From an uncultured Opitutaceae bacterium (GTDB lineage Bacteria; Verrucomicrobiota; Verrucomicrobiia; Opitutales; Opitutaceae): a DNA stretch of 64,000 bases. The notes under the pieces are model-generated. The model saw only the letters and a program-made list of their open reading frames with translations. It made no database searches and was not told the origin of the DNA. This document shows, piece after piece, positions 6,454 through 36,500 of the stretch. The stretch's first letter is position 1, and every line of letters begins with the position of its first letter. Both the position numbers and the translations under genes were made by a program. The stretch covers positions 1,311,627 to 1,375,626 of the forward strand of contig OX638348.1 of assembly GCA_951813085.1 (NCBI GenBank), written 5' to 3'.

Positions 6454-8802
6454 CTTTTGCGATGTCAGCTCGAGCAGCTTCTCATTCAGGATGTCGAGCG
6501 GTACGGGCTTGGAGAGTACGAGATCCACATTGGAAGGAGCATCCTCGGCGTCCATGATCATCTCGCCAAAGCCGGTCGCCATGATAACAGGAGTATCCGG
6601 ATTGATGGCCTTGATCTCGGATGCGAGCTGGTCACCGCTCATGTTGGGCATTGCCCGATCTGTGATCACCAAGTCGAATGGATTTTTACGGAATGCATCA
6701 AGCGCCCGCTCTCCGGTCTCGAAATTCTCCACTGAATGTCCACCTGTTCCTAGCAATTCCGATAGGACTTCCAGTAGAACTGCCTCGTCGTCCACGAGCA
6801 TGATTCTCAAGGCGCTGGAAGCGGCAGGAGCGCGTTTCTTGCTTGGAGGCTTCAGTTTCTCCTTAGCAGCCGATAGGGTGATCGTAACGGTGGAGCCTAC
6901 TCTTTGCTCGGATTCGATTTCGATTTCGCCGCCGTGTCTCTTTACGACGCCGGATACGATCGATAGTCCAAGTCCGGTTCCGAGCTTCCCTTTTGTGGTG
7001 TAGAAGGGATCGAGGCATTTGGAGCGAATCGATTCTGGCATACTTTTTCCAGTATCGATAATTTGAATTCGAACGTTTTCATTCTGGTCGTCGATTTTCA
7101 AGCATATCGAGCCATTCGAATCGATAGCGTCGGCCGCATTGATAACGAGATTGGAAATTGCTTGCCGAATTTCAGGCTCGTTGCCGTGAATAAGTCGTTT
7201 GGTTCGAATTTTCGGCTGAAAAGAAATGTCAGCGCCTCTGGCTTCCGCTTGGGATTTCCATCTATGTTGGGTAAGGTCTTTGACATGCTCAACTAGCGTA
7301 CTGGGATCGAAGTCCGAAAGCAGTTCAAGATTCGGATCTTGAGCGGTATAGAATTCGCGAAGTCGACTGACCACCGCTGCTCCATCTTGAGCGGCTACCT
7401 TGATTTTTTCGAGGAAGTGGACGAGTTTTTGATCGCCACGTCCCCCTTCGGGCATATTGAGGAGAAGCTCTGAGAATCCGAGGATCGGGGCGAGCAGATT
7501 GTTGAAATCGTGAGCGATACCGCTAGCCATTTGGCCAAGCGATCGGAGGTTCTCCTGTTGCATCGCGATCTTTTGAGCCTCCTTTTCGTCCGTAACGTCT
7601 TCAATCGCCAGAACTACGGTATTTGATCTTCCTTCGTGATCGTGTAGTGGAATTATGGAAACGGATCCCCCAAAATGGTCCCCGTTTTTCTTGTACAAGA
7701 CGACCTCTTCCGAATGAAAACGAAGACTTTCGATCGATGCCTTGATCTTGGATACTCGAGTGCCGTCGCTTCGTTCTCCAAACAGATCCTCTATGTAGAT
7801 TGGATTTGCTTCGGTAGGAGAATAGCCGGTTGCGGATTCGAAAGCTAGATTCGGCGACTCAATCCCAAATTTACCCGAGTTCGCGTTCAATGTAGCGAAT
7901 GCCGTCGCGCTGAGCTGAGTCAAAGCGGATTCGAAATGGGTTTTGTCTAGGGTTAGATCTTTCGCGTTTATTTGGATAGCGTCCCCTGAGCGTTGAATGT
8001 GCAGATAGAGGGAGCGCTGTGAACCATCCTTGCAGATAAAAGTAACGACTTGCTTGTTGTCCTGAATTAAGTTGGAGTCGCTGTTGATTAGGGCCTCGAA
8101 CGAATTTCGAAAATTTGGGTGCGCAAGCTCGAAAAGCGGGATCGCGGCGATTTCGCTTTCCGTGTATCCGAGTAAGGAGTTCCAGCATGGGCTGGACGAT
8201 ACGAATTGTCCTGAGGAGAGGTAATTTGCAGTTAATCCTCTGGACTGTCGTGGCGATTCGATGGAAGCGGTAAGAGAGGAGTTCCTTGCCGCTTTCAGAA
8301 TGATTCGCGACTCGGAGGGATCGATACTGACAAAAAGAGGAATGCGTTTGAGCTGAAGCGAAGGGGTCGCTTCCGAGCCTGAATCCAGCGTTAGAATGAA
8401 CGGCTGCGTGTTTGCTTCTGCTTCCAGGTCGAGGAACCACTCCTTGAATGCCGGTCGTTCAAGGGCCCGCTCAAATACCGTTTTCCCTACGAGTTGGGAT
8501 TGAGCGCAATCCCAAATGGAGTCGGGATCGCCAGCGACTTCTAGGCATACGCCGCGCCCATCGTGCAGTGAGTAGACGACGTTCTCATCGGGGATGCTCA
8601 GGTCCTTGAATAGCTGCCAATTCAGGACGGGAATGCTGCTCTTCCTGAATTCGTCTCCATTTTGTGGCTCGAATGGACGAGATTCGGATTGGCTAGAATC
8701 CGATTCTACCCGCGTACAAGGCGCTGCGACGGGGTCGCGCTCGGGGGAGCGCAATTCTACGGGCTGTGGAATGCCAGTAGTCTCTGGGCGTTTACCATCC
8801 AT
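6391..8802 (-). CDS. Hybrid sensor histidine kinase with PAS domains and C-terminal receiver
   Basis: The 803-aa protein has no membrane segment, so it senses in the cytoplasm. A low-complexity N-terminus is followed by three PAS-like regions (about 65-175, 185-285 and 288-405; the third is clearest, with FESATGYSPTE and a VTDEKEAQ linker). Then come a HisKA domain with H-box GIAHDFNNLLAPILGF (His431), a HATPase domain (FYTTKGKLGTGLGLSIVSGV) and a receiver domain from about 668. In the receiver, LVDDE, VITDRAMPNMSG (phospho-acceptor Asp near 720) and LSKPV are intact. The HDFNN type of kinase usually passes phosphate to its own receiver. The response regulator gene lies 156 bp upstream on the same strand. 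Signal unknown. Confidence 0.9.
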   Translation of the reverse strand: MDGKRPETTGIPQPVELRSPERDPVAAPCTRVESDSSQSESRPFEPQNGDEFRKSSIPVLNWQLFKDLSIPDENVVYSLHDGRGVCLEVAGDPDSIWDCAQSQLVGKTVFERALERPAFKEWFLDLEAEANTQPFILTLDSGSEATPSLQLKRIPLFVSIDPSESRIILKAARNSSLTASIESPRQSRGLTANYLSSGQFVSSSPCWNSLLGYTESEIAAIPLFELAHPNFRNSFEALINSDSNLIQDNKQVVTFICKDGSQRSLYLHIQRSGDAIQINAKDLTLDKTHFESALTQLSATAFATLNANSGKFGIESPNLAFESATGYSPTEANPIYIEDLFGERSDGTRVSKIKASIESLRFHSEEVVLYKKNGDHFGGSVSIIPLHDHEGRSNTVVLAIEDVTDEKEAQKIAMQQENLRSLGQMASGIAHDFNNLLAPILGFSELLLNMPEGGRGDQKLVHFLEKIKVAAQDGAAVVSRLREFYTAQDPNLELLSDFDPSTLVEHVKDLTQHRWKSQAEARGADISFQPKIRTKRLIHGNEPEIRQAISNLVINAADAIDSNGSICLKIDDQNENVRIQIIDTGKSMPESIRSKCLDPFYTTKGKLGTGLGLSIVSGVVKRHGGEIEIESEQRVGSTVTITLSAAKEKLKPPSKKRAPAASSALRIMLVDDEAVLLEVLSELLGTGGHSVENFETGERALDAFRKNPFDLVITDRAMPNMSGDQLASEIKAINPDTPVIMATGFGEMIMDAEDAPSNVDLVLSKPVPLDILNEKLLELTSQKLKEVTALLIAYRQRASLHCF

Positions 8803-8958
8803 GGAAATTGAGTCGTTGTGAGGGGCCGAGTCCTTTCAGCCCAAAGTCGCGTCGAGAGAGATCCCGCGGCACGACTTTTTAGATTGAGCTATCCCCGTTC
8901 CGAAGAGTGGGAGATAGGAAAAAGATTCTGTGTGTTTTGTGGAATAGGTTGTCGCTGG

Positions 8959-9597
8959 TTAAGCGAGCGAGATGAGGTCATTTTTGATGGCGTACCGCGT
9001 TAGGGCAGCGACATCGTGGAGATTGAGCTTTCTCATTATGTTGGTCAGGTGGTTGTCCACTGTGCGAACCGAGATATTGAGACGGGCTGCAATTTCTTTC
9101 GTTGAATAACTTTCGGCCACGAGCTGGAGAATTTGCTTCTCATGATCGGAGAGGGGGATTTCGCTAGAACTGGAGTCAGGATTGAGAATAAGAGAGCGCA
9201 TGACGCTTGCCATCTTCGGGCCAATGAACGTTCCGCCACCAGAGATGATATCGAGCGCTTTCTTGAACTCGTCGAAACCGTCCATCTTGTCGACGTAGCC
9301 TTGAGCTCCAGCGGAAAGCAGTTCACGGATATTTGCAGAGCTCGCTTTTCCTGAGAAAATGAGAACTTTCACACCGGGGACGTGCAACGTAAGGCCGCGA
9401 AGGACCTCCGTACCACTGAGTTCAGGGAGACCGACATCAAGAATGACAGTGTCCGGTTTTAGCTTTATGCATCCCTGCAAACCTTCCTCGCCGTTGCCGA
9501 ACGAACCCACAATTTCGTAGCCTGGCAGCAGAGTGATGAACTCCGATACCATTTCGCGGATTGCGGTTTGATCTTCTATAATTACGACGCTTTTCAT
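8959..9597 (-). CDS. LuxR/NarL-family response regulator
   Basis: The 212-aa protein has a receiver domain (VVIIEDQ acidic pair; phospho-acceptor Asp54 in VILDVGLPELSG; FSGKAS and DKMDG switch residues). A C-terminal LuxR-type helix-turn-helix follows at about 145-208 (LSDHEKQILQLVAES, then TKEIAARLNISVRTVDNHL). Phosphorylation should drive dimerisation and DNA binding. It is 156 bp upstream of the hybrid kinase on the same strand, so the two probably form one pathway. No target operon can be named from this window. Confidence 0.92.
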   Translation of the reverse strand: MKSVVIIEDQTAIREMVSEFITLLPGYEIVGSFGNGEEGLQGCIKLKPDTVILDVGLPELSGTEVLRGLTLHVPGVKVLIFSGKASSANIRELLSAGAQGYVDKMDGFDEFKKALDIISGGGTFIGPKMASVMRSLILNPDSSSSEIPLSDHEKQILQLVAESYSTKEIAARLNISVRTVDNHLTNIMRKLNLHDVAALTRYAIKNDLISLA

Positions 9598-9833
9598 GTA
9601 TTTGAACTTCCTGTTGCTCCCTACAGTTACGGATACCGAGTATATTTCTTAAGTAGCAATTGAACGGGAACTCATCGCTTGGAGGCTTTTGCTGGAATTG
9701 GATTAGAGGCCGTTTCTTCGCTCTTTTTGCTTAAATTTCCCTAAATCGTTGCCTGCCTGCCGTTTTTTTAAGGCGATCAGCGCTGTTCAGAGGAAGACAC
9801 CTGCGGAGGGAAATGCTAGCTGCTATTGGAACG
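9598..9833. other. Intergenic region with no recognisable gene
   Basis: Non-coding DNA lies between the response regulator start and the terminator of the actin-like gene. It is where the promoter of the regulator-kinase pair is expected, but I see no convincing -35/-10 pair. I see no RNA gene and no ORF with coding character. Confidence 0.5.
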
Positions 9834-9866
9834 GAAAAAGACGGGCTCCGGTAAAACCAGAGCCCG
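9834..9866 (-). terminator. Rho-independent terminator of the actin-like operon
   Basis: On the minus strand GGGCTCTGG (9865-9857) pairs with CCGGAGCCC (9851-9843) through a five-base loop. A CTTTTT tract follows (9840-9835). It sits 76 bp after the stop of the actin-like reading frame and ends that minus-strand unit. Confidence 0.85.
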
Positions 9867-9941
9867 CCATCCTATTCCTGCACCACAAAGTGGCTGTTTC
9901 GATTCACCTACCCCTAGGTTCATCTATACCTACAAACTACA

Positions 9942-11175
9942 CTAACGTAAAAGATTCTGCCATTGGCGGTCGTCTGCCTCGAGGGCCCCCGCAGCGACAC
10001 GCGTTTTATACGAGGATCCGATGCGATGGACTTTGCATCCTTCAAAGCCTTCTTCCTCCAGGAGTGATTCGAGCCCGTCGCCGAACCCAGGAATCATGCT
10101 GCCGCCACCCGTGATGATGATGTTTTCAAGCAATCCTAGAATACTGTCCGGATCCGCTTGGACGATGAGCGTTTTCACTGTTTCGAAAATCTTAGAGAGC
10201 AGGGCATTGCATGCGGTTTCCACCGCATCGGCCACTTCCAAGTCGCTTCACCTTGCCTCGTATCATGACGGGAGCCATCGCCGATTCGGTCGCCCCTCTG
10301 ACGAAAGAGTGCTGCTCCTTGATCTCTCGGCACTTGTCGAGCGATACGCCACAGTCGGGGTACTTGGCGACAAGGTCATTCTGGATGAGGGCGTCAAGCG
10401 CGTCTCCAGCGAAATTGAAGCTGAGCTGGTCCTCGCTCAAGGGAAAGTATCCTTGGATAAGGCATAGGTCTGACGATCCCGCCTCTATATCGATGAATAG
10501 GGAATTGGCGATCGGATCGAATCCCGTTGATTCGCTGCGACTTCCAAGAGCGGCGAGGAAGGGCTCCGGTATAAGGATGACTTTGTCGAATATCCCGGTT
10601 GCAGCGAGACGCGCATTTTCCCTCGCTTGGGCAGTCGCGTTTGCGGGCATGCCAATTACGGCGCGATATTCGGTGTTCGGCAGATTGCCGATACGGTCCT
10701 TGACGAATGAAAGGAAGTCACGAACGGCGTCCAGGTCGGTCACGACGGGGCGCTTAAGATCGAGATGCAGCTTGTTGTCCAGGGCATCCTGGCCGAAGAA
10801 AGTGGTTTGATTGCCGGGTAGCACATTTGGCAGGATTCCTGGCCGGGCGTAGCCGACTACAGTGGGAATGGTCTCAGTAGCTTCTGCCGTGTCCGCTCCG
10901 AGCTCCGCGATTTGCACACAGGTAGTGTTCGTTCCAAGATCGAGTCCTACCAGCAGCGTCTCTAGCTGACGGCGAGAAACGGGTTCGGACTGTTCTTTTT
11001 TTGAGGATCGGGTAGACTTGGGAGTTGCTTTTGCCTTGGTCGGGAGCGCGGGCTCCTCGAATTCCGGGTCTGCGGTCGAAATGAGGCCTTGCGAAGGGGG
11101 ATATCCTAGGAACGAGTTGTCCTGGGCGTCAGCGCTGGCACTGTCGAAAGCGGTTGCGGTGGTTTTGCGGGTCAT
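9942..11175 (-). pseudogene. MamK/MreB-like actin-family ATPase, interrupted by one frameshift
   Basis: Two overlapping frames (11175-10192 and 10241-9942) together give one actin-superfamily protein of about 410 aa. An ~88-aa low-complexity leader precedes phosphate-1 motif LVGLDLGTNTTCVQIAE. MreB/MamK-like VIGMPANATAQARENARLA and PEPFLAALG follow, then phosphate-2 SLFIDIEAGSSDL. The adenosine motif ENIIITGGGSMIPGFGDGLE lies after the break. Frame is lost around 10242-10250: GKVKR should continue LEVADAVETACNALL, and one extra base causes the shift. Both halves keep clean coding character, so the break is recent or an assembly error. Family members form filaments that position or shape structures. 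The first gene of the unit overlaps by 4 bp. Confidence 0.8.
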
Positions 11176-25486: not shown

Positions 25487-26143
25487 ATGTCTAATGTATT
25501 CCCAAAGTGGTCAAACGCGCTGCCGTTAAAGATAATCGTATTTATTTTTATACTCGCTGCAGCGATTGTCTCCGGAGTCACTTATTACGCGACTCCCAGT
25601 TATACGCGGGTCGGTTACCAACCCGCGCAACCCGTCCTATACGACCATAGCTTTCATGTAGGAGAGCTAGGATTGGATTGCCGCTATTGCCACAGCGCCG
25701 TCGAGGAGTCTGGGCATGCGAACATACCTGCTGCGAGTACCTGCATGTCTTGCCACAGCACGATCAAGACGGATAGCCCCTTGCTCGAGCCAGTGCGGGC
25801 GAGCTTCGCTTCCGGAGAACCTGTACCTTGGGTACGGGTACATGAAACGCCTGACTACGTTTACTTCAATCACTCGGTTCACGTAAATCGCGGCGTTTCT
25901 TGCGTAGAGTGCCACGGAAAAGTGAACGAGATGGAGATCGTCACCCATGACCAGTCGCTTAGCATGGGCTGGTGCCTGGACTGCCATCGAAATCCGGAAG
26001 AACACATTCGCCCAGTAGACCAGGTTACCAACTTGGATTGGGTCCACCCAGGGGGCAAGAAAGGCCAGATCGAAGACGGGCTCAAGTTCGTCGAAGAGTG
26101 GAAAATCAATCCTCCTCAAAGTTGCTCAGGCTGCCACCGATGA
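25487..26143 (+). CDS. actA: Alternative complex III pentaheme cytochrome c ActA
   Basis: The 218-aa protein has an N-terminal membrane anchor (IIVFIFILAAAIVSGV) and a periplasmic part with five heme c sites: CRYCH, CMSCH, CVECH, CLDCH and CSGCH. This matches the pentaheme ActA subunit of alternative complex III, which replaces cytochrome bc1 as quinol:electron acceptor oxidoreductase. ActA passes electrons from the Fe-S subunit ActB to the monoheme ActE. HSFHVG and NHSVHVNRG supply distal His ligands as in ActA. The stop overlaps the actB start (ATGA). Confidence 0.95.
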   Translation: MSNVFPKWSNALPLKIIVFIFILAAAIVSGVTYYATPSYTRVGYQPAQPVLYDHSFHVGELGLDCRYCHSAVEESGHANIPAASTCMSCHSTIKTDSPLLEPVRASFASGEPVPWVRVHETPDYVYFNHSVHVNRGVSCVECHGKVNEMEIVTHDQSLSMGWCLDCHRNPEEHIRPVDQVTNLDWVHPGGKKGQIEDGLKFVEEWKINPPQSCSGCHR

Positions 26144-29100
26144 AACCGATTAACTCAACTCCCTCCACCAAGGCAGAGCAGACGGGACCGCGTTATTGGC
26201 GCAGTCTCGATGAACTGTCCCAGTCGCCTGAATTCATAGATCAAGTACAGCGCGAGTTCGGACCGGAAGCGTCCGAGATGAATGAGGTCGACCGCCGGCA
26301 CTTCTTCAAAATCATGGCAGCTTCCTTCGCTCTCGGCGGTGTAGGCTTTACGGGCTGTCGTCGTCCCGAGTCGCACATTCTCCCGCATTCTAAAGCGCCT
26401 GAATACCAAGTGCCGGGACAGCCCCTTTACTATGCGACCCAGTTTTCTCTCCGCGGAGAAAGCATTCCGCTTTTAGTAGAAACGCACGCGGGGCGCCCTA
26501 CTAAGATAGAGGGGAATGGAGATTTCAAAGGCTTGAATGGAGGAACCAGCCTCAAAGCCCAAGGCTCCTTGCTCGAGCTTTACGATCCGGACCGATCGAC
26601 CCGCTATACCAAGAACGGAGCAAATCTTTCCAAAGAGGAGGCTCAAGATATTCTGGATGATTGGAAGGCATCATTTTCAAGTTCGAAAGGGGCAGGGGTC
26701 GCCGTTCTCACGGAGAAATCTTCGTCACCTACGCGGTTGCGGTTGAAGAAGGAATTTCTGAAGCAATGCCCGAATGCTATCTGGGCCGAGTATGAACCCG
26801 TTGAAACCGGCCATGGAAAAGCCGCCGCCGCCATCGTGGCAGGGGCGAACCTCGAACCGAAGTACGACCTTTCCAAGGCAGAGCGGATTTTGAGCGTGGA
26901 TGGCGATTTTCTAGGGGACGTTCGAGGCAGCCTTGCCCTGAGCAAGCAATTTGCCGATGGCAGGCGCGTTCGCTCGACGAGCGACTCAATGAATCGACTC
27001 TATGTAGTAGAGAGTGGGTTTAGCCTCACGGGCGCCATGGCGGATCATCGCAAGCGTTTGTCTAACAGCCGCATGGCAGCGCTGCTCGCTGCGGCCGCAT
27101 TGGAAATTGACCTAGGCGTGGAAGGGGAAGCTTTGATTCCCATTTTCGAAAAACTCGCCAATGGACTCGATGCCGACGCAAAGGATTGGATTTCCAAAGC
27201 CATGGCGGATTTGGATCACCATAAAGGCAAAAGCCTCGTTTATGCAGGCCCTCAACTGAGCAAGGAAGCCCACGGGATTGCGTTGCTCATAAACGAGAAG
27301 CTTGGAAATCTTGGTAAAGCCCTCACGTTCGCGGAGGTCGAATCCGATGAGTCGAGCTCTATTCAAGACCTGGCGAAGGCGATCGAAGCCGATGATATCC
27401 AAACCTTGATTCTTTCGGGAGGAAATCCCGCATACAATGCGCCAGCGGAATTGGATTTCGCTTCGAAAATAGAAAAAGTGGATACGACGTTGCGGCTCGG
27501 GTACTACGATGACGAGACGTCGACGAAATCCACTTACCACTTTGTTCAAGCCCACTATCTCGAGTCCTGGGGCGATGCGCGATCTTACAATGGAGACTTG
27601 CTTGCGCAGCAACCCATGATTCTCCCACTATTCGATGGCATCTCCGAAATAGAGGCGCTGGGTCGACTAGTAGGTGCTGAGAACACGGATGGACATAGCC
27701 TAGTTTACGAGACCTTCCAAAAAGTGGGATCGAAAGGGAAGAGCGCGTTCGATAAATTCGTGCACGATGGATTCGCCGCGGATTCCGGATACAAGGTGAA
27801 TCGCTCGCTTATTTCTGGCATGCGCTTGGCCGAAGCCCTGAAGGATGAGGACGTTTCAGCAGCGCCCACGGGCAAGGACAATCTAGAAATCGTCTTCGCC
27901 CCGGACGCGTGCGTCGACGATGGTCGCTACGTCAATAACGGCTGGCTTCAGGAATGTCCTGATCCCATGACGAAGATGACCTGGGACAATGCGATCTATG
28001 TTAGCCCGCGCCTCGCGGACGAGCTGAATATCATCGCTCCTGATTCCCTATTGCAGATTACACGCAAGAATCCGAATGTGGTTAAGGATGGCCGCTCATA
28101 TTCCCCTGTTGCGAAAGTAACCGTGGATGGCCGCGAAGTGACCGGAGGCGTGCAGATACTCCCGGGACTAGACAATTACTCCATTATAATGCCTCTCGGC
28201 TATGGCCGAACGCGGACGGGCCGTATTGGAACGAACTCAGGATACAGCGCTTACGCGGTACGTACGTCAGACACGGCAACTTTCGCCTCCGGGGCCCAGC
28301 TTGAGTTGACTGGAGACGTTATCCAGTTGGCGAATACGCAAGAGCACTGGTCAATGGAAGGCCGGGCCATTATCCGTGAATCGAATTTGGATGACTATGC
28401 ATCTGATCCCCATTGGGTGGATCAAATGGGGATGGAAAGCCATTCGCCTTCTGTTCTGGGCGAGGACAAGGGCATGTCCGTGCAGGAGCGCTCCATGTCG
28501 ACTCCCCGTGGAGGCTCCGCGTATGAGCATCCTGACCATGCAGGTGTACACCAATGGGGGATGTCTATCGATTTGAATGTGTGCTCGGGTTGCAACGCCT
28601 GCGTCGTGGCCTGTCAGAGCGAGAACAATATTCCGATTGTAGGTCGTGAGCAGGTTCGTCGGGGACGCGAAATGCACTGGATACGCCTCGATCGCTATTT
28701 CTCTTCGAATGTGATCAAGCGCGACGACGTTGGCAATCCACTCCTTGATGAGCATGGCGAAGAGCAGCTCGACTTGGCGGCGATTCCTGAGGATCCGCAA
28801 GTATCCATCCAGCCAATTGGATGTATGCACTGCGAGACAGCTCCATGCGAAACGGTTTGCCCGGTCAATGCGACGGTGCACGACGAGGACGGCCTTAACA
28901 CGATGGCTTACAATCGTTGTATTGGTACCCGCTACTGCGCGAACAACTGCCCTTACAAAGTACGTCGCTTCAATTTCCTCGATTATCAACAGCGCCCTCT
29001 AGATCGCTTGTACGAAGGTCCGCTCGCGCCGAAAGGAATGCCTGAGCTAACTCAGATGGCGCAGAATCCGGACGTTTCGGTAAGAATGCGCGGCGTAATG

Positions 29101-29534
29101 GAAAAGTGCACCTATTGCGTGCAACGTATCCAGCAAGCCAAGATTGCCCAGAAGGTAAAGGCGCGTGACAGCAACGACGTCACGATCCCGGATGGTACCA
29201 TAAAAACCGCTTGTCAGCAAGTTTGCCCAATGGATGCCATCGAGTTTGGGGACGTGAGCGATCCTGAAAGCAAGGTATCTGTGTTACAGGCAAATGAACG
29301 CAATTACGCAGTTCTTGGATATACGAATGCGAGACCGCGCACGACTTACTTGGCGAAGCTTCGAAATCCAAATCCGGAAATGCCAGATTATCACGATCAA
29401 CCGCTCTCCAAGGGAGAGTACGATGCGGCTACTCCGCATCATGGCGATGATCATGGCGGGCATGATTCACATGATGACCATGGTCATGAAGCAGCTCACT
29501 CTGACTCCCACTCTGAAAATGGAGGAACGCACTA

Positions 29535-29535
<1 letters not shown>
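26140..29535 (+). CDS. actB: Alternative complex III molybdopterin-like/Fe-S subunit ActB
   Basis: The 1131-aa protein starts at ATG 26140; the open frame upstream lies in actA. A Tat motif ([12 protein letters not shown]) followed by a lipobox-like FTGC suggests folded export and lipid anchoring. Residues ~70-800 resemble molybdopterin oxidoreductases, but this domain holds no cofactor in known ActB. The C-terminal quarter binds Fe-S clusters through [42 protein letters not shown] and CQQVCP. The last 35 residues are rich in His, Asp and Gly, with ten His. The fused arrangement is standard for ActB. Its stop shares one base with the actC start. Confidence 0.95.
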
Positions 29536-30947
<1,412 letters not shown>

Positions 30948-30969: not shown

Positions 30970-31524
30970 ATGGCTAAACAACACGGACTAATCGCTAAAT
31001 TCGATACCCCTGCCGACATAATGCATGCGGCAGAGAAGGTGAGAGATGCAGGCTTTAAGAACTGGGATGTGATAACCCCTTTTCCGATTCATGGCATGGA
31101 TCCCGCAATGGGTATCAAGCGCTCGCTAGTAGGTCGATTTACGATTTGCGGCGGTACGATCGGTATTACCACAGGTATGCTGATGATCTGGTTCACAGGG
31201 GGCTCCGATCTCAGCGTGCCCTTAATGGAAGGATACAAGCTGATCGTTGGGGGCAAGCCTTACTTCAGTCCGCAATTCGCGTTTCCAGTATCCTACGAGC
31301 TGACCATTCTATTTTCGGCGTTCGCTTCCATTGGTGGGATGTTCATTCTGAACAAACTGCCTCAGCACTATCATCCGCTTCTTAAATACAAGGACGTTGC
31401 CGCCAGCTCGGATGACAAGTTCTTCTTGTATATCGAAAATGAAGATCCGCAATTCGACGAGGAAAAGACACGCGCGTTCCTTGGCGAGCTTGGAGCTGTT
31501 GAAATAGGGGAGTTGGAGGAGTAA
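30970..31524 (+). CDS. actD: Alternative complex III membrane subunit ActD (DUF3341)
   Basis: The 184-aa protein has an N-terminal soluble part (GLIAKFDTPADIMHAAEKVR; WDVITPFPIHGMDPAMG) and two membrane helices (about 58-78 and 103-123). These match DUF3341, the ActD subunit that braces ActC and ActF. The PFPIHGMD motif is diagnostic. It has no cofactors. It lies between actC and actE. Confidence 0.94.
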   Translation: MAKQHGLIAKFDTPADIMHAAEKVRDAGFKNWDVITPFPIHGMDPAMGIKRSLVGRFTICGGTIGITTGMLMIWFTGGSDLSVPLMEGYKLIVGGKPYFSPQFAFPVSYELTILFSAFASIGGMFILNKLPQHYHPLLKYKDVAASSDDKFFLYIENEDPQFDEEKTRAFLGELGAVEIGELEE

Positions 31525-31529
31525 TTTAG

Positions 31530-32138
31530 ATGCGATACGTATATCTAGTTTCAATAGTCGGCGTTATAGGGTTAATCGCCTTGCTCGGGCCGCGCGGCTC
31601 GGTTACGACACGGCCGCCGATCGAAGTATTTCCCGATATGGACCGCATGCCGAAATACCATCCTCAGGCGAAGAGCGCTTTTTTCGCGGATGGCCGCACA
31701 GATCGATTGCCGGTGGAAGGTACGATCGCCAGGGGCACGTACTACGAAGATGAATACTTCGCTACAGGAAAGAATGGCGAAGCCTTCGGTAAGGGTTTTC
31801 CAATCGATGTTGACAACGATGCCATGGCTCGCGGGGAAGACCGCTATAACATTTATTGTTCCGTTTGCCACGGCGCTGCCGGAGATGGCGATAGCATGAC
31901 CAAGAAATATGGTATGCTCACGGTAGCCAATCTGGTGGATCAGAGACTGGTCGACTACACGGATGGACAGTTGTACGATGTTGTGAAAAACGGCAAAGGC
32001 CTGATGCTTGGCTATGCAGACCGTCTTTCCGTCGAAGACCGGTGGAACGTCGTACTTTATGTGAGAGCGCTTCAACGCGCAGCCAATGGAACTAAAGACG
32101 ATTTAACGCCTGCTAAACGAGAGGAGCTCGGACTATGA
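31530..32138 (+). CDS. actE: Alternative complex III monoheme cytochrome c ActE
   Basis: The 202-aa protein has an N-terminal membrane/leader segment (VYLVSIVGVIGLIALLG) and one heme c site, CSVCHGAAGDGDS, with a likely Met ligand in GLMLGYADRLS. The motif FPDMDRMPKYHPQAKSAFF is typical of ActE in ACIII operons. It is the likely electron exit site of the complex. The stop overlaps the actF start by 4 bp (ATGA). Confidence 0.93.
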   Translation: MRYVYLVSIVGVIGLIALLGPRGSVTTRPPIEVFPDMDRMPKYHPQAKSAFFADGRTDRLPVEGTIARGTYYEDEYFATGKNGEAFGKGFPIDVDNDAMARGEDRYNIYCSVCHGAAGDGDSMTKKYGMLTVANLVDQRLVDYTDGQLYDVVKNGKGLMLGYADRLSVEDRWNVVLYVRALQRAANGTKDDLTPAKREELGL

Positions 32139-33358
32139 GCGCTGACTTTACGCCTAATCCTAAAAAATGGCTAACGCTCGGGATCGCTGGACTGGCGGTA
32201 TCCGTCATCGGCTTTTTCGTCGAACCCCAAATCGCAGCCTGGTCCTACTTGATCGGCTTGATTTTCATCACTTCCATCGCGATCGGGATGCTGTTCCTGG
32301 TAATGATTCATCACATTTTCGACGCTCAATGGTCGGTGATCGTGCGGCGTCAAGCGGAACATTACATGGCCGCCTTGCCATACATGGGAATATTGTTCAT
32401 CCCGCTGTTTCTCTTAACCTATTTGGGAGGCAATGAAGGCATTCTGTGGCTTTGGATGGACCAAGGAGCGTCGCTGCATGGCCATGGAACGGTTGGTACA
32501 GATGTTCTATACCAGAAGAAAACGTGGTGGCTTACCGAATGGTTCTTTTGGACGCGCGCGGTCCTTTGCTTTTCTATCTGGATCTACTTCGGCAGCAAAT
32601 TTCGCAAGAACTCGTTCTCGCAAGACGAAGATGGTTCGCCAAAGCACACATTCTCTAGCCGGAAGCATGCAGCGATCGGGTTGATTGCGGTAGCTCTCAG
32701 CTGGACGGCGGCGGCATTCGATTGGATAATGGGATTGGAGTACCACTGGTTCTCCACGATGTTTGGAGTTTGGATGTTCGCTAGCGCGATGCGAGCGGCA
32801 TTAGCGGTAATGCTGTTAACGATTGCGTTCCTAGTCGCGAAGGGACCGCTTAAGGGGATTCTCAATACGAAGCACTTGCACGACGTGGCGACTCTGGCGT
32901 TCGCCTTCACGGTTTTTTGGGCCTACATTACGTTCTCCCAGTACTTCTTGATTTGGAACGCGAATATTCCTGAAGAGACCTTTTGGTTCAATGATCGCGA
33001 ACAAGGGATTTGGTGGCCTATATCCATGATCCTCATTTTTGGATATTTTCTGTTCCCATTCCTCTACATGCTTCAGTTTCCCCTGAAGACGAATTTCAAA
33101 TCGATGACATTCATGGCGATCTGGCTTTTGAGCATGAATCTGCTCGACGTGTTCTTCAACGTACTGCCGTCGCTAAAGGATCATCATGGTGAACCTTTCC
33201 AGATGTTTTCGAGCGTCACCAATATTATTTGGTACCTATCTGCCGTAGTCGGAGCAGGAGGGATATTGCTTTGGGCATACTGGTCGAGCTACCAGAAAAC
33301 GAAGATTATCCCTATCCGTGATCCCCGCATTCAAGAATGCTTGAACCACAACCACTAG
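32135..33358 (+). CDS. actF: Alternative complex III membrane subunit ActF
   Basis: The 407-aa polytopic protein is a second, shorter NrfD-like subunit. Conserved ActF segments include MLFLVMIHHIFDAQWSVIVR, RQAEHYMAALPYMGILFIPL and DWIMGLEYHWFSTMFGVWMF, with WNANIPEETFWF towards the C-terminus. In known structures ActF pairs with ActC in the membrane and may provide a proton channel. The 92-aa gene follows after 10 bp. Confidence 0.94.
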   Translation: MSADFTPNPKKWLTLGIAGLAVSVIGFFVEPQIAAWSYLIGLIFITSIAIGMLFLVMIHHIFDAQWSVIVRRQAEHYMAALPYMGILFIPLFLLTYLGGNEGILWLWMDQGASLHGHGTVGTDVLYQKKTWWLTEWFFWTRAVLCFSIWIYFGSKFRKNSFSQDEDGSPKHTFSSRKHAAIGLIAVALSWTAAAFDWIMGLEYHWFSTMFGVWMFASAMRAALAVMLLTIAFLVAKGPLKGILNTKHLHDVATLAFAFTVFWAYITFSQYFLIWNANIPEETFWFNDREQGIWWPISMILIFGYFLFPFLYMLQFPLKTNFKSMTFMAIWLLSMNLLDVFFNVLPSLKDHHGEPFQMFSSVTNIIWYLSAVVGAGGILLWAYWSSYQKTKIIPIRDPRIQECLNHNH

Positions 33359-33368
33359 GAAACGAACG

Positions 33369-33647
33369 ATGAGCGAGACTGCGCAAACACCTAATCGAAG
33401 CGCCTTCCCAATGGTAGTCGCTATTTTGGGGGCCTTTCTAATTTTTTATTTCATAGTCAGCGCGACATTCGATAATTCGGATGCAACGCTTGGAGAGCCC
33501 GCGCTCGAGCGACCATCGCTTGCGGAGCATAGCGCTGCTCAAGCAGATAAGCTTTCTGGATACGTTGTCACCGATCCCGCTGCTGGAAAAGTTCGGTTGC
33601 CGATCGAGCGCGCTAAAGAACTCGTCATATCGGAAAATGCTAAGTAG
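33369..33647 (+). CDS. Small single-helix membrane protein of the respiratory operon
   Basis: The 92-aa protein has one membrane helix (VVAILGAFLIFYFIVSA) and a periplasmic tail that ends in GKVRLPIERAKELVISE. I recall a similar GxVRxPIxxAMxLV tail in small proteins of ACIII or oxidase operons of Verrucomicrobiota and Planctomycetota. It carries no heme or metal motif. Its place directly after actF fits an extra ACIII subunit (the site where other operons carry actG) or a link to the following CcoN-like protein. Role inferred from position. Confidence 0.7.
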   Translation: MSETAQTPNRSAFPMVVAILGAFLIFYFIVSATFDNSDATLGEPALERPSLAEHSAAQADKLSGYVVTDPAAGKVRLPIERAKELVISENAK

Positions 33648-33688
33648 CCGAGATTGGCCTATTCGATTTTGCGGAACTAATTTCTAGT

Positions 33689-35173
33689 ATGAGTTTGATT
33701 GGCAATATTTGTTCTTCGCTTTGTCCCGAGCTTAACGGTGAAACGAAGAATCGCGAATCCGTAAGGGCGATTGATGCCTCTATTCGGTTTCCGCTCCTGT
33801 CGCTCATCAAGTCGGCGATCGTCTGGTTGATTATCGCTACGATTTTTGGATTGATTGCGTCGATAAAGCTCCATTCTCCCAGTTTCTTTGGAGACAGTTC
33901 GATCCTAACCTACGGAAAAGTTGAGCCCGTTTTCTGGAATGCGCTCATTTACGGTTGGCTGTTCAATGCGGGGATTACTTGCGCGGTCTTCCTCTTGGCG
34001 CGTTTGGGTGGTACGACTGCAGGACTTGGAATTTTTCTGACAATAGCGATTACGTTGTGGAATGTGGCGGTTGGATTCGGGATTATCGGGATTTTGGCTG
34101 GAGAGCAACTGCCCTACCAATGGCTCGAGTTTCCTGCGTTCGTCGGACCGGTTCTGTTCACTGCGTTCGTTGGTATCGGACTCTGGTGCATGCTTACCTT
34201 TCGGGCGCGAATTCATCGAACGAGCTTCGCTTCTCAATGGTGGATCATCGCGGCGCTTTTCTCATTCGCCTGGATCTACACCACTGCCCAGATGATGTTG
34301 GTTTGTTTCCCTGCTCAAGGAGCGATCCAAACTTTGGTCAATAGCTGGTACGTTGAGAATGTGTTTGGGCTATTCATCGCTCCTTTCACGTTCGCTACAA
34401 TCCTTTACTTGCTTCCAAAAACCTTGGGCGCACCAGTTGTGGGGCATAAATACAACACGTTTTTGGCGTTTTGGAGCTGGCTGCTTTTTGCGAGCTTTTC
34501 CGGTGTAGCCTCGATGGCCCATGGCCCTATTCCAGTATGGGTATCGTCAGTAGGCGTGATAGCGAGTTTTGGACTGCTACTTCCCGCGACAACGCTTTCA
34601 ATTCAATTTCTGTCTAGCCTGTTTCAGCGTTTCAGCGTTATCTGGGATTCCGCTACTGCGCGATTCCTGTTGGCAGGCTGTATCGCGTTTGTCGTTCTGA
34701 TGTATCTCAAGGTGTTTGGCGCCTTGCGCAGCTCGCAAGGAGTGACTCAATTCTCAGTGTACGATTCCGGTCTTTGGTATCTGGCGTTTTTCGGATTCGC
34801 CGGGATGGTATTCACAGGAGCGTCACTCTTCATTTTGCCACGACTGCTGAATAAGGAACTTCCTTCCTCGACTTTGGTTGATCTTCAGTTCTGGGCTCAA
34901 TCAATGGGCGTGATTATTGTATCCATCGGTCTGATTTCAGGCGGTGAGCAGCAAGGGGCTTTGTTGAATCAGAGTACTGCCGATACATTGGTAATCGTGA
35001 AAACGATGCGAAGCAGCTTTTTCATGATCACCACGGGATTGACCTTTATATTGGTTGGCGCTGTTGCCAATGCGATCACCTACTTTTGGCTTCTGATTTC
35101 AGACCGCTCTGAAAGCGAGCAATCAGTTAGCTTGATCAAGGAGGCTCCGGAATTGGAGTACAACGCCTCATGA
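33689..35173 (+). CDS. CcoN-family membrane protein lacking all heme and CuB ligands
   Basis: The 494-aa, ~12-helix protein aligns with the cbb3 oxidase catalytic subunit CcoN along its length: VEPVFWNALIYG, SWYVENVFGLF, the PIPVW segment, and its next to last loop region QQGALL. Yet every ligand is changed. The low-spin heme pair is Phe82 and Tyr364 instead of His. The heme b3 His is Leu362. CuB ligands are Glu223, Ala274 and Ser275. The cross-linked Tyr is also gone. Only four His remain (62, 176, 253, 278), none at a ligand position. It therefore cannot reduce O2. It follows ActABCDEF and precedes intact CcoO and a cytochrome c, so a structural or proton-related role in that assembly is the best inference. 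Confidence 0.85.
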   Translation: MSLIGNICSSLCPELNGETKNRESVRAIDASIRFPLLSLIKSAIVWLIIATIFGLIASIKLHSPSFFGDSSILTYGKVEPVFWNALIYGWLFNAGITCAVFLLARLGGTTAGLGIFLTIAITLWNVAVGFGIIGILAGEQLPYQWLEFPAFVGPVLFTAFVGIGLWCMLTFRARIHRTSFASQWWIIAALFSFAWIYTTAQMMLVCFPAQGAIQTLVNSWYVENVFGLFIAPFTFATILYLLPKTLGAPVVGHKYNTFLAFWSWLLFASFSGVASMAHGPIPVWVSSVGVIASFGLLLPATTLSIQFLSSLFQRFSVIWDSATARFLLAGCIAFVVLMYLKVFGALRSSQGVTQFSVYDSGLWYLAFFGFAGMVFTGASLFILPRLLNKELPSSTLVDLQFWAQSMGVIIVSIGLISGGEQQGALLNQSTADTLVIVKTMRSSFFMITTGLTFILVGAVANAITYFWLLISDRSESEQSVSLIKEAPELEYNAS

Positions 35174-35835
35174 ATCGCGGCCCCTTCATATTTCTTGGTG
35201 TATTCATCATCGTGGTAGCTTCATGGACCTATGTCGTCTACAAGCCGAACCAGAACGTGGGGCGCTTAACGGCTATCATTGATGAGGAACAAGGCGGAAT
35301 CTTGCCCAGAGGCATTCAAGGAGCGGCTTCGCATGGACGGGAAGTGTATCAAGAATTGGGATGCATTGCCTGCCACACGCAACAAGTCCGCGTTGCCACC
35401 GGGACCGATATTGAGCGTGGCTGGGGTGTCCGTCAGTCAGTCGCTCGCGACTATATAGGCGAGACGAGAGCCTTGATCGGAAATTCACGAATAGGTCCGG
35501 ATCTCGCTAATATTGGCGATCGCCGACCTAATGCGAATTGGCACTTGCTGCATTTCTACAATCCACAAATTACGTCGGAGGGCTCAAACATGCCTGCCTA
35601 CGCATTTCTTTTCGAAACGCGGGAGATTGTCGGGGAACCCAGCGTCGATGCTTTGGATATCCCCGAACCCTTCGCTCCAGAGAACGGATACGAGGTCATT
35701 CCGAGCCGGGAGGCTCATTCGTTAGCGTCCTATATGGCTAGCTTGAAAATCGACTACGACTTGATTGAAGCGCCGAAGTCGAATGAAATCATGGCGGAAG
35801 AATTAGCCTTCGCGTTGGAGAATGCGGCCCAATGA
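35170..35835 (+). CDS. ccoO: CcoO-like monoheme cytochrome c
   Basis: The 221-aa protein is anchored by an N-terminal helix (FIFLGVFIIVVASWTYVVY). It has one heme c site, CIACH, in GREVYQELGCIACHTQQVR, and the CcoO motifs NSRIGPDLANIGDRRPNANW and HFYNPQ. The Met ligand lies in SNMPAYAFL. So the heme centre is intact, unlike the CcoN-like partner next to it. In cbb3 oxidases CcoO brings electrons to CcoN; here it probably serves as a membrane-bound electron carrier for ACIII. It overlaps both neighbours by 4 bp. Confidence 0.9.
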   Translation: MNRGPFIFLGVFIIVVASWTYVVYKPNQNVGRLTAIIDEEQGGILPRGIQGAASHGREVYQELGCIACHTQQVRVATGTDIERGWGVRQSVARDYIGETRALIGNSRIGPDLANIGDRRPNANWHLLHFYNPQITSEGSNMPAYAFLFETREIVGEPSVDALDIPEPFAPENGYEVIPSREAHSLASYMASLKIDYDLIEAPKSNEIMAEELAFALENAAQ

Positions 35836-36500
35836 GTGACGAGTCTCAGAATCAGAAATTGCCGGGTATCGATGAAGGCCTAGCGAGCGATGAGAGCATT
35901 CTCAAAGCGCATGCGCGAATCTGTCGCGAACCGATCCATGCATCGCCGGTATTCTTTTTCACCTGCATGGCATTAATAACGATTCTTGTCTTTGGCTGGT
36001 TCTACCACCGGCGCTACATGGGCGAGAACGATCCTCAAATCTACATGCACGAGCGTACGGACATCGCGCTCTATCGGGATTGGGTCGATCGTCCTCGAGG
36101 TCCGATCGAATATGACTATTTCGCAATCGGTCAGGAGCTCTATACGAAGATGGCCTGCGTGGGATGCCATATGGCGGAAGGGGAAGGAAAAGCGGGCGAG
36201 TTTCCTCCATTGGCCAGTTCTCAGTGGGTTACAAACGAAGATCACACGCTTCCTACAAAAATTCTTTTGGCGGGACTAGTTGGTCCTGTGACGGTGAAAG
36301 GCGCTGAATACAATGGCAATATGGCTCCTTATGGCCCGGCGCTCAAGGACCATGAAATCGCCGGCTTGGTGACTTATATTCGTCAGAGTTGGGGGAATGA
36401 AGCGAGCGAGGTGACGTTGGAACAAGTAGCCGAGGTAAGGGCCGAAATTGGGACGCGCGCTCAATGGACTGCGGACGAGCTCACGAGCTACTTCGAGTAG
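35832..36500 (+). CDS. Membrane-anchored monoheme cytochrome c (CcoP position)
   Basis: The 222-aa protein has one membrane helix (ASPVFFFTCMALITILVFGW) and one heme c site, CVGCH, in ELYTKMACVGCHMAEGEGKA, with a likely Met ligand in NMAPYGPAL. The layout resembles half of a CcoP, which normally has two hemes. The preceding loop (DRPRGPIEYDYFAIGQELY) is family-like for cytochromes next to oxidases. It ends the operon and overlaps CcoO by 4 bp. It may pass electrons from ACIII/CcoO to a terminal oxidase encoded elsewhere. Confidence 0.85.
   Translation: MSDESQNQKLPGIDEGLASDESILKAHARICREPIHASPVFFFTCMALITILVFGWFYHRRYMGENDPQIYMHERTDIALYRDWVDRPRGPIEYDYFAIGQELYTKMACVGCHMAEGEGKAGEFPPLASSQWVTNEDHTLPTKILLAGLVGPVTVKGAEYNGNMAPYGPALKDHEIAGLVTYIRQSWGNEASEVTLEQVAEVRAEIGTRAQWTADELTSYFE

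Follow-up and report, generated by a model that had tools for sequence, protein, structure and literature searches.

The molybdoenzyme-like domain ActB1 of alternative complex III (ACIII) is not known to contain a molybdenum cofactor and is in this respect a module retained as structure after losing its site. The same holds for ActF, a PsrC-like relative of the quinol-binding subunit that has no quinol site; this cofactor-free membrane subunit has been proposed to contain proton half-channels (PMC5928083). In Rhodothermus marinus and Flavobacterium johnsoniae, the ActABCDEF genes are followed by genes for a caa3 and an aa3 oxidase, respectively; ACIII-caa3 and ACIII-aa3 supercomplexes are known, and the R. 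marinus oxidase adjoins ActC and the cytochromes (PMC5928083, PMC8552683). One residue change close to the CuB site of a cbb3 oxidase was regarded as unprecedented in a 2013 genome paper, which described the copper as being held by three histidines in all members (PMC3578206). According to work cited in PMC8267372 (Koch 2000 and Kulajta 2006), the heme b, heme b3, and CuB centers of CcoN depend on CcoS, and CcoNOQP still assembles in its absence, as an inactive complex. In the open literature, nothing on point was found for a ligand-less CcoN or an ACIII-cbb3 operon, and we came across no account of a heme-copper oxidase subunit lacking every metal ligand yet under selection; subscription papers lay mostly outside this search.

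The window, a 64,000-nucleotide stretch of contig OX638348.1 from an uncultured Opitutaceae bacterium, contains an operon with the gene order actA-actB-actC-actD-actE-actF-sml-ccoN-ccoO-ccoP, in which all genes lie on the plus strand and overlap or are separated by a few bases (Table 1). The complete ActA-to-ActF gene set confirms the ACIII setting proposed for ccoN in the initial annotation, which was also right about the coordinates and frame of the gene and its ATGA overlap with ccoO. As in R. marinus and F. johnsoniae, oxidase genes follow those of ACIII; unlike in those systems, the oxidase is a relative of the cbb3 type and, in the clade of the window, appears to be catalytically empty. 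Across the related operons described below, ActA has five CxxCH motifs in complete relatives, ActB is conserved wherever there is enough flanking sequence, the heme motif of ActE is present in 62/62 operons with intact and 38/38 with ligand-less CcoN, and sml occupies the identical place in most. The ActF of the window gave no Pfam match.

Table 1. Features of the ACIII operon and their coordinates in the window
Feature	Coordinates	Strand	Description
ActA	25487..26143	+	Pentaheme c cytochrome of ACIII; Pfam Cytochrome_C7 and QrcA-like
ActB	26140..29535	+	Molybdoenzyme-like and FeS protein of ACIII; frame of 1131 aa
ActC	29535..30947	+	NrfD-type quinol-binding membrane subunit; PF03916, E 4.4e-20
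ActD	30970..31524	+	PF11821, E 1.5e-59; single ActD of the genome
ActE	31530..32138	+	Monoheme cytochrome c, CSVCH at residue 110; PF13442
ActF	32135..33358	+	NrfD-like membrane subunit, from position and conservation in all operons
sml	33369..33647	+	92 aa; hydrophobic N-terminal segment, then conserved C-terminal part
ccoS site of intact relatives	33648..33688	+	About 41 bp in the window, without ccoS
Ligand-less CcoN	33689..35173	+	Pseudo-oxidase subunit, 494 aa
CcoO-like	35170..35835	+	Monoheme cytochrome c, CIACH at residue 65; PF02433, E 4.7e-21
CcoP-like	35832..36500	+	Monoheme cytochrome c, CVGCH at residue 109; PF00034, E 5.4e-13

The ccoN product belongs to the COX1 family (PF00115, E 2.6e-20), and its PDB matches are all cbb3 CcoN. 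It also matches the ccoN model TIGR00780 (E 8.8e-22), with a score of 77.6 bits that is below the equivalog cutoff of 583. An AlphaFold2 model built from 29 family members (pLDDT 87.7, pTM 0.90) matches the fold of Pseudomonas stutzeri CcoN (3mk7), with a Z score of 48.2 and 1.7 Å over 443 residues, and Foldseek gave TM scores of 0.85/0.89; in the model, the whole CcoN fold is kept and the metal sites alone are gone. The likeness to P. stutzeri cbb3 extends to the gene order ccoN-ccoO-ccoP and to structural Gly, Pro, and Trp positions, whereas the window lacks the six ligand histidines, the cross-link tyrosine, Glu323, and ccoS and has a CcoP with one heme motif. A phmmer alignment and MAFFT alignments with the 3mk7 sequence as anchor supplied the ligand columns; residues are numbered as printed for that sequence (the last two histidines being 345 and 347). 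The heme b ligands H60 and H347 are replaced by F82 and Y364, the heme b3 ligand H345 by L362, the CuB ligands H207, H257, and H258 by E223, A274, and S275, and the cross-link Y251 by A268. The protein has four histidines in all (62, 176, 253, and 278), and no alternative register placing a histidine at a ligand site was seen in either kind of alignment. The replacements, the loss of the cross-link tyrosine, and the histidine count are those given in the initial annotation, and they support its claim that no redox center is left. The cbb3 active-site Glu323 corresponds to L340, but this residue is missing from intact ACIII-linked relatives as well.

All six histidines are also absent in 10 of 10 relatives from the genus (one of them a partial gene) and in three other genera of the family, in the same operon wherever flanks are present, which rules out chance or an assembly error. 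The best explanation is that the window CcoN has no heme b, heme b3, or copper, in which case it could not reduce O2. Binding of metal or heme through other residues seems very improbable: E223 and F82 are indeed fixed in the genus, but close relatives vary at positions 275 (S, E, D, or K) and 364 (Y, C, Q, or L), and ccoS has been lost.

Relatives were sought in 57 genomes from genus to order level, 50 of which contained a ccoN relative, and an ACIII operon was present in 47 of the 48 larger loci around these matches. The exception (L052, positions 7692 to 10679) is a second, intact ccoN copy of genome G023 that lies apart from ACIII, next to bc-type genes and those of a caa3-type oxidase, and is followed downstream by a ccoS-like stretch; it had appeared as a 995-aa fusion, which the locus suggests is an over-long open reading frame of a stand-alone ccoN. 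A wider scan of named genomes used the family alignment as the query, the single window sequence having matched no relative, and gave 80 loci, most of them intact, from Opitutales (including Cerasicoccus, Coraliomargarita, and Geminisphaera) and other Verrucomicrobiota; further loci came from metagenome-assembled genomes labeled Planctomycetota (Isosphaeraceae) and Omnitrophota. The ActABCDEF-sml-ccoN-ccoO-ccoP operon is found across the Opitutales, with intact examples in the other Verrucomicrobiota and in those labeled genomes. By its gene order (ActABCDEF-sml-[ccoS]-N-O-P) and the common descent of its CcoN, the window operon belongs to what is defined here as the Opitutales ACIII-linked group.

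Among 102 non-redundant operons, all ligands are kept in 62 and partly or wholly lost in 40, the states ranging from HHYHHHH (all kept) to none. Because intact ligands occupy the same operon position in these 62, the ancestor is taken to be an ACIII-linked cbb3-type oxidase, with the intact enzyme as the likely ancestral state. The reading of the ligand-less subunit as a family apart was not borne out: the ligand loss stands, but homologs at the same position keep the canonical ligands, and the comparison shows a pseudo-enzyme state that is derived and appears to have evolved repeatedly from such an oxidase. Intact ccoN (e.g., L017 to L023 and L032) encodes all metal ligands and has A, Q, L, I, T, or F at the position of Glu323; the intact relatives that were scored reached 225 to 250 bits and are thus also below the TIGR00780 cutoff. 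PMC5492636 mentions an "unknown group" of heme-copper oxidases, to which these proteins may correspond. Intermediate states also occur. L128 (4647 to 6137; HHSARHH) has lost two CuB histidines and the tyrosine but neither of the two heme b ligands nor that of heme b3, and L165 (6001 to 7515; HHYSHHH) has lost one CuB histidine, although a sequencing error is possible there. Since both still have ccoS, their states suggest that copper binding can be lost before heme binding. In L079 (FFSNYHY), ccoS has diverged.

Several comparisons bear on how often the ligands were lost. On a tree of the ACIII core (ActB, ActC, ActD, and ActF of the 102 operons), 15 changes of state are needed, 10 of which well-supported branches make unavoidable, and it follows that ligand loss recurred. 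An earlier ACIII tree of the first 47 operons required 12 changes (9 forced), and a tree of CcoO plus CcoP required 8 (4 forced); all trees are quick searches in which some rows are long-branched. A tree of ccoN itself places all ligand-less sequences in one clade with long branches. Such a clade could also result from a single loss followed by gene exchange, but this was rejected because the ACIII trees, the CcoO/CcoP tree, the differing residual histidines, and L154 favor repeated loss. The similarity of ligand-less to intact ccoN tracks the ACIII relationship (r = -0.53, beyond all 5,000 permutations). The ccoN of L154 is 62% identical to that of its intact ACIII sister L148 and at most 48% identical to any ligand-less ccoN, and the ligand residues that remain differ by lineage (H257, H258, and H345 in L039; H207 and Y251 in L041; H347 in L038). 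The single ccoN clade is read as attraction of fast-evolving rows, and we conclude that the gene sequences point to about ten or more losses within the same operon.

The loss of ligands is accompanied by the loss of ccoS. Genes were called by PF03597/TIGR00847 matches in some operons and by a profile of 13 sequences in the rest. Every intact ACIII operon has a ccoS-like gene between sml and ccoN, where the gap measures 158 to 842 bp compared with about 41 bp in the window, and nearly all ligand-less operons are without one; no ccoS was found in the operon of the window or elsewhere in its genome. With duplicates counted, 74 intact loci have ccoS and 2 do not (L156 and L161, both loci in which ACIII genes were not observed), whereas 48 ligand-losing loci are without it and 4 retain it: L128 and L165, whose ligands are altered in part, and L079/L162, a single locus in which ccoS has diverged. 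In a sign test, 8 of 10 independent comparisons of ccoS with the ligands agree and none is opposite (p about 0.008). A gap of 199 bp remains at the ccoS position of L033 and contains no recognizable remnant of the gene. The R. capsulatus ccoS mutants described in PMC8267372 resemble this condition in that CcoNOQP is assembled and inactive, with a CcoN that has no metal centers, and differ in being laboratory mutants rather than a natural state; since CcoNOQP assembles without CcoS, there is a precedent for CcoO and CcoP being held by a CcoN that is poor in metal.

It is improbable that the ligand-less ccoN is functionless and decaying, persisting because it sits inside an essential operon. The intermediate states of L128, L165, and L079 would fit such a course, as would the branch lengths, by which ccoN evolves faster after ligand loss. 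However, dN/dS for ccoN is 0.05 to 0.10 (0.064 to 0.095 for the three closest pairs in the genus), in the range of ccoO and ccoP, and indicates purifying selection, in support of the claim of the initial annotation that the gene is under selection; the frames are full length and open at nearly all ligand-less loci; and many structural columns are retained at 97 to 100%. In a comparison of 162 columns conserved in intact proteins, those most often lost include H60, W203, Y251, H257, R57, H345, and H347 with their neighbors, and those at 97 to 100% in ligand-less CcoN include D29, R105, P149, Q183, Q214, P280, and W284.

The heme c sites of the two neighboring subunits are kept. CxxCH is present in CcoO of 38/38 ligand-less operons and in CcoP of 36/38, the other two ending at a contig end or containing a stretch of unknown bases. 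The window CcoO has the single heme c motif expected of a cbb3 CcoO; CcoP has one CxxCH in the window and in the other complete CcoP of the operon group and so differs from the diheme type. An acidic EP-x-E motif preceding the CcoP helix, whose last Glu may correspond to the proton-entry Glu of cbb3 CcoP, occurs in 53/57 intact and 9/39 other operons and is absent from the window clade. This absence makes a proton-channel relic, one of the roles initially suggested, less likely, although loss of the motif by itself assigns no function; the scaffold or docking role suggested alongside it remains plausible. A subunit that translocates ions or couples energy without a redox center, as proposed for ActC and ActF, is similarly doubtful and would be a slim prospect: cofactor-free ActF offers a parallel, and polar residues such as K244 and Y240 are still conserved, but besides the acidic CcoP motif, T215, S240, and Y317 (3mk7 numbering) are largely lost in ligand-less proteins.

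The genome of the window contains one other heme-copper oxidase, an aa3 enzyme encoded away from the ACIII operon, and neither CydA nor a PF13631 cytochrome b was found in it. With a single ActD, ACIII plus aa3 thus looks like the aerobic chain of this genome. All genomes with ligand-less ccoN that are at least 86% complete have another heme-copper oxidase; in G008 (85% complete), no second oxidase was seen. In G046 (99% complete), the intact ACIII-linked ccoN is the sole heme-copper oxidase and CydA is absent, an inventory that fits a working ACIII-linked oxidase. In the aa3 enzyme of the genome that contains the window, subunit II shows a COX2 domain but lacks a cytochrome c domain, so an external heme donor is required. 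A metal-free CcoN might serve mainly to dock ACIII to aa3, with CcoO and CcoP passing electrons straight to it, which we regard as unlikely but worth considering given the known supercomplexes. D29, Q183, Q214, and P149, which differ from or are unaligned in P. stutzeri CcoN, are fixed in intact and ligand-less proteins alike; their fixation in intact ACIII-linked oxidases means that service to aa3 is not required to explain them, and the separate location of the aa3 genes also argues against such docking. In the window genome, a 219-aa cytochrome c with two CxxCH motifs precedes the aa3 cluster (L057, 6250 to 10684) and is a candidate carrier between CcoP and aa3.

On balance, we think it probable that the pseudo-oxidase has been retained as a scaffold in the membrane, keeping the hemes of CcoO and CcoP on ACIII as an electron exit toward aa3. 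The ancestor of the subunit would have been an oxidase whose genes lay with those of ACIII and which was probably assembled with it; after O2 reduction had passed to another oxidase, metal binding, CcoS, and part of the CcoP pre-helix segment could be lost, and the CcoN body would be retained because it anchors CcoO and CcoP, keeping its fold and most probably its place between them and ACIII. Electrons would pass from menaquinol through ActC/ActB and the ActA/ActE hemes to the hemes c of CcoO/CcoP and then, by a periplasmic cytochrome c or directly, to the aa3 oxidase. It is the operon order that points to a physical complex of CcoN with ACIII, and we infer from the sequences the exit role and aa3 as the partner; CcoO and CcoP could, as a counterpossibility, reach ACIII without CcoN.

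With ActF already cofactor-free, conversion of an enzyme module into structure would be in character for ACIII; ActF and ActB1 are general to the complex, however, whereas CcoN lost its sites more than once, and intact counterparts still exist today at the same operon position. Loss in the same operon some ten or more times means that a respiratory enzyme was repeatedly converted, most likely into a metal-free scaffold that serves the neighboring cytochromes. Tentatively, and with rather guarded confidence, we extend this to the proposal that a heme-copper oxidase subunit repeatedly and independently became a cofactor-free part of ACIII, its old body carrying the exit hemes or coupling ions; if true, a permanent quinol-to-cytochrome c machine was built on a former oxidase body. 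With intact, intermediate, and empty versions present in the same operon, three questions become testable: which functions the oxidase body has apart from O2 reduction, how ACIII hands on electrons, and in which order the dismantling of an oxidase proceeds. Annotation by COX1 or ccoN similarity would wrongly assign a high-affinity oxidase to these bacteria. In L038 (10360 to 11202), sml and a CcoP-like cytochrome c domain apparently form a single fusion protein (243 aa), a hint that sml is located close to the heme chain.
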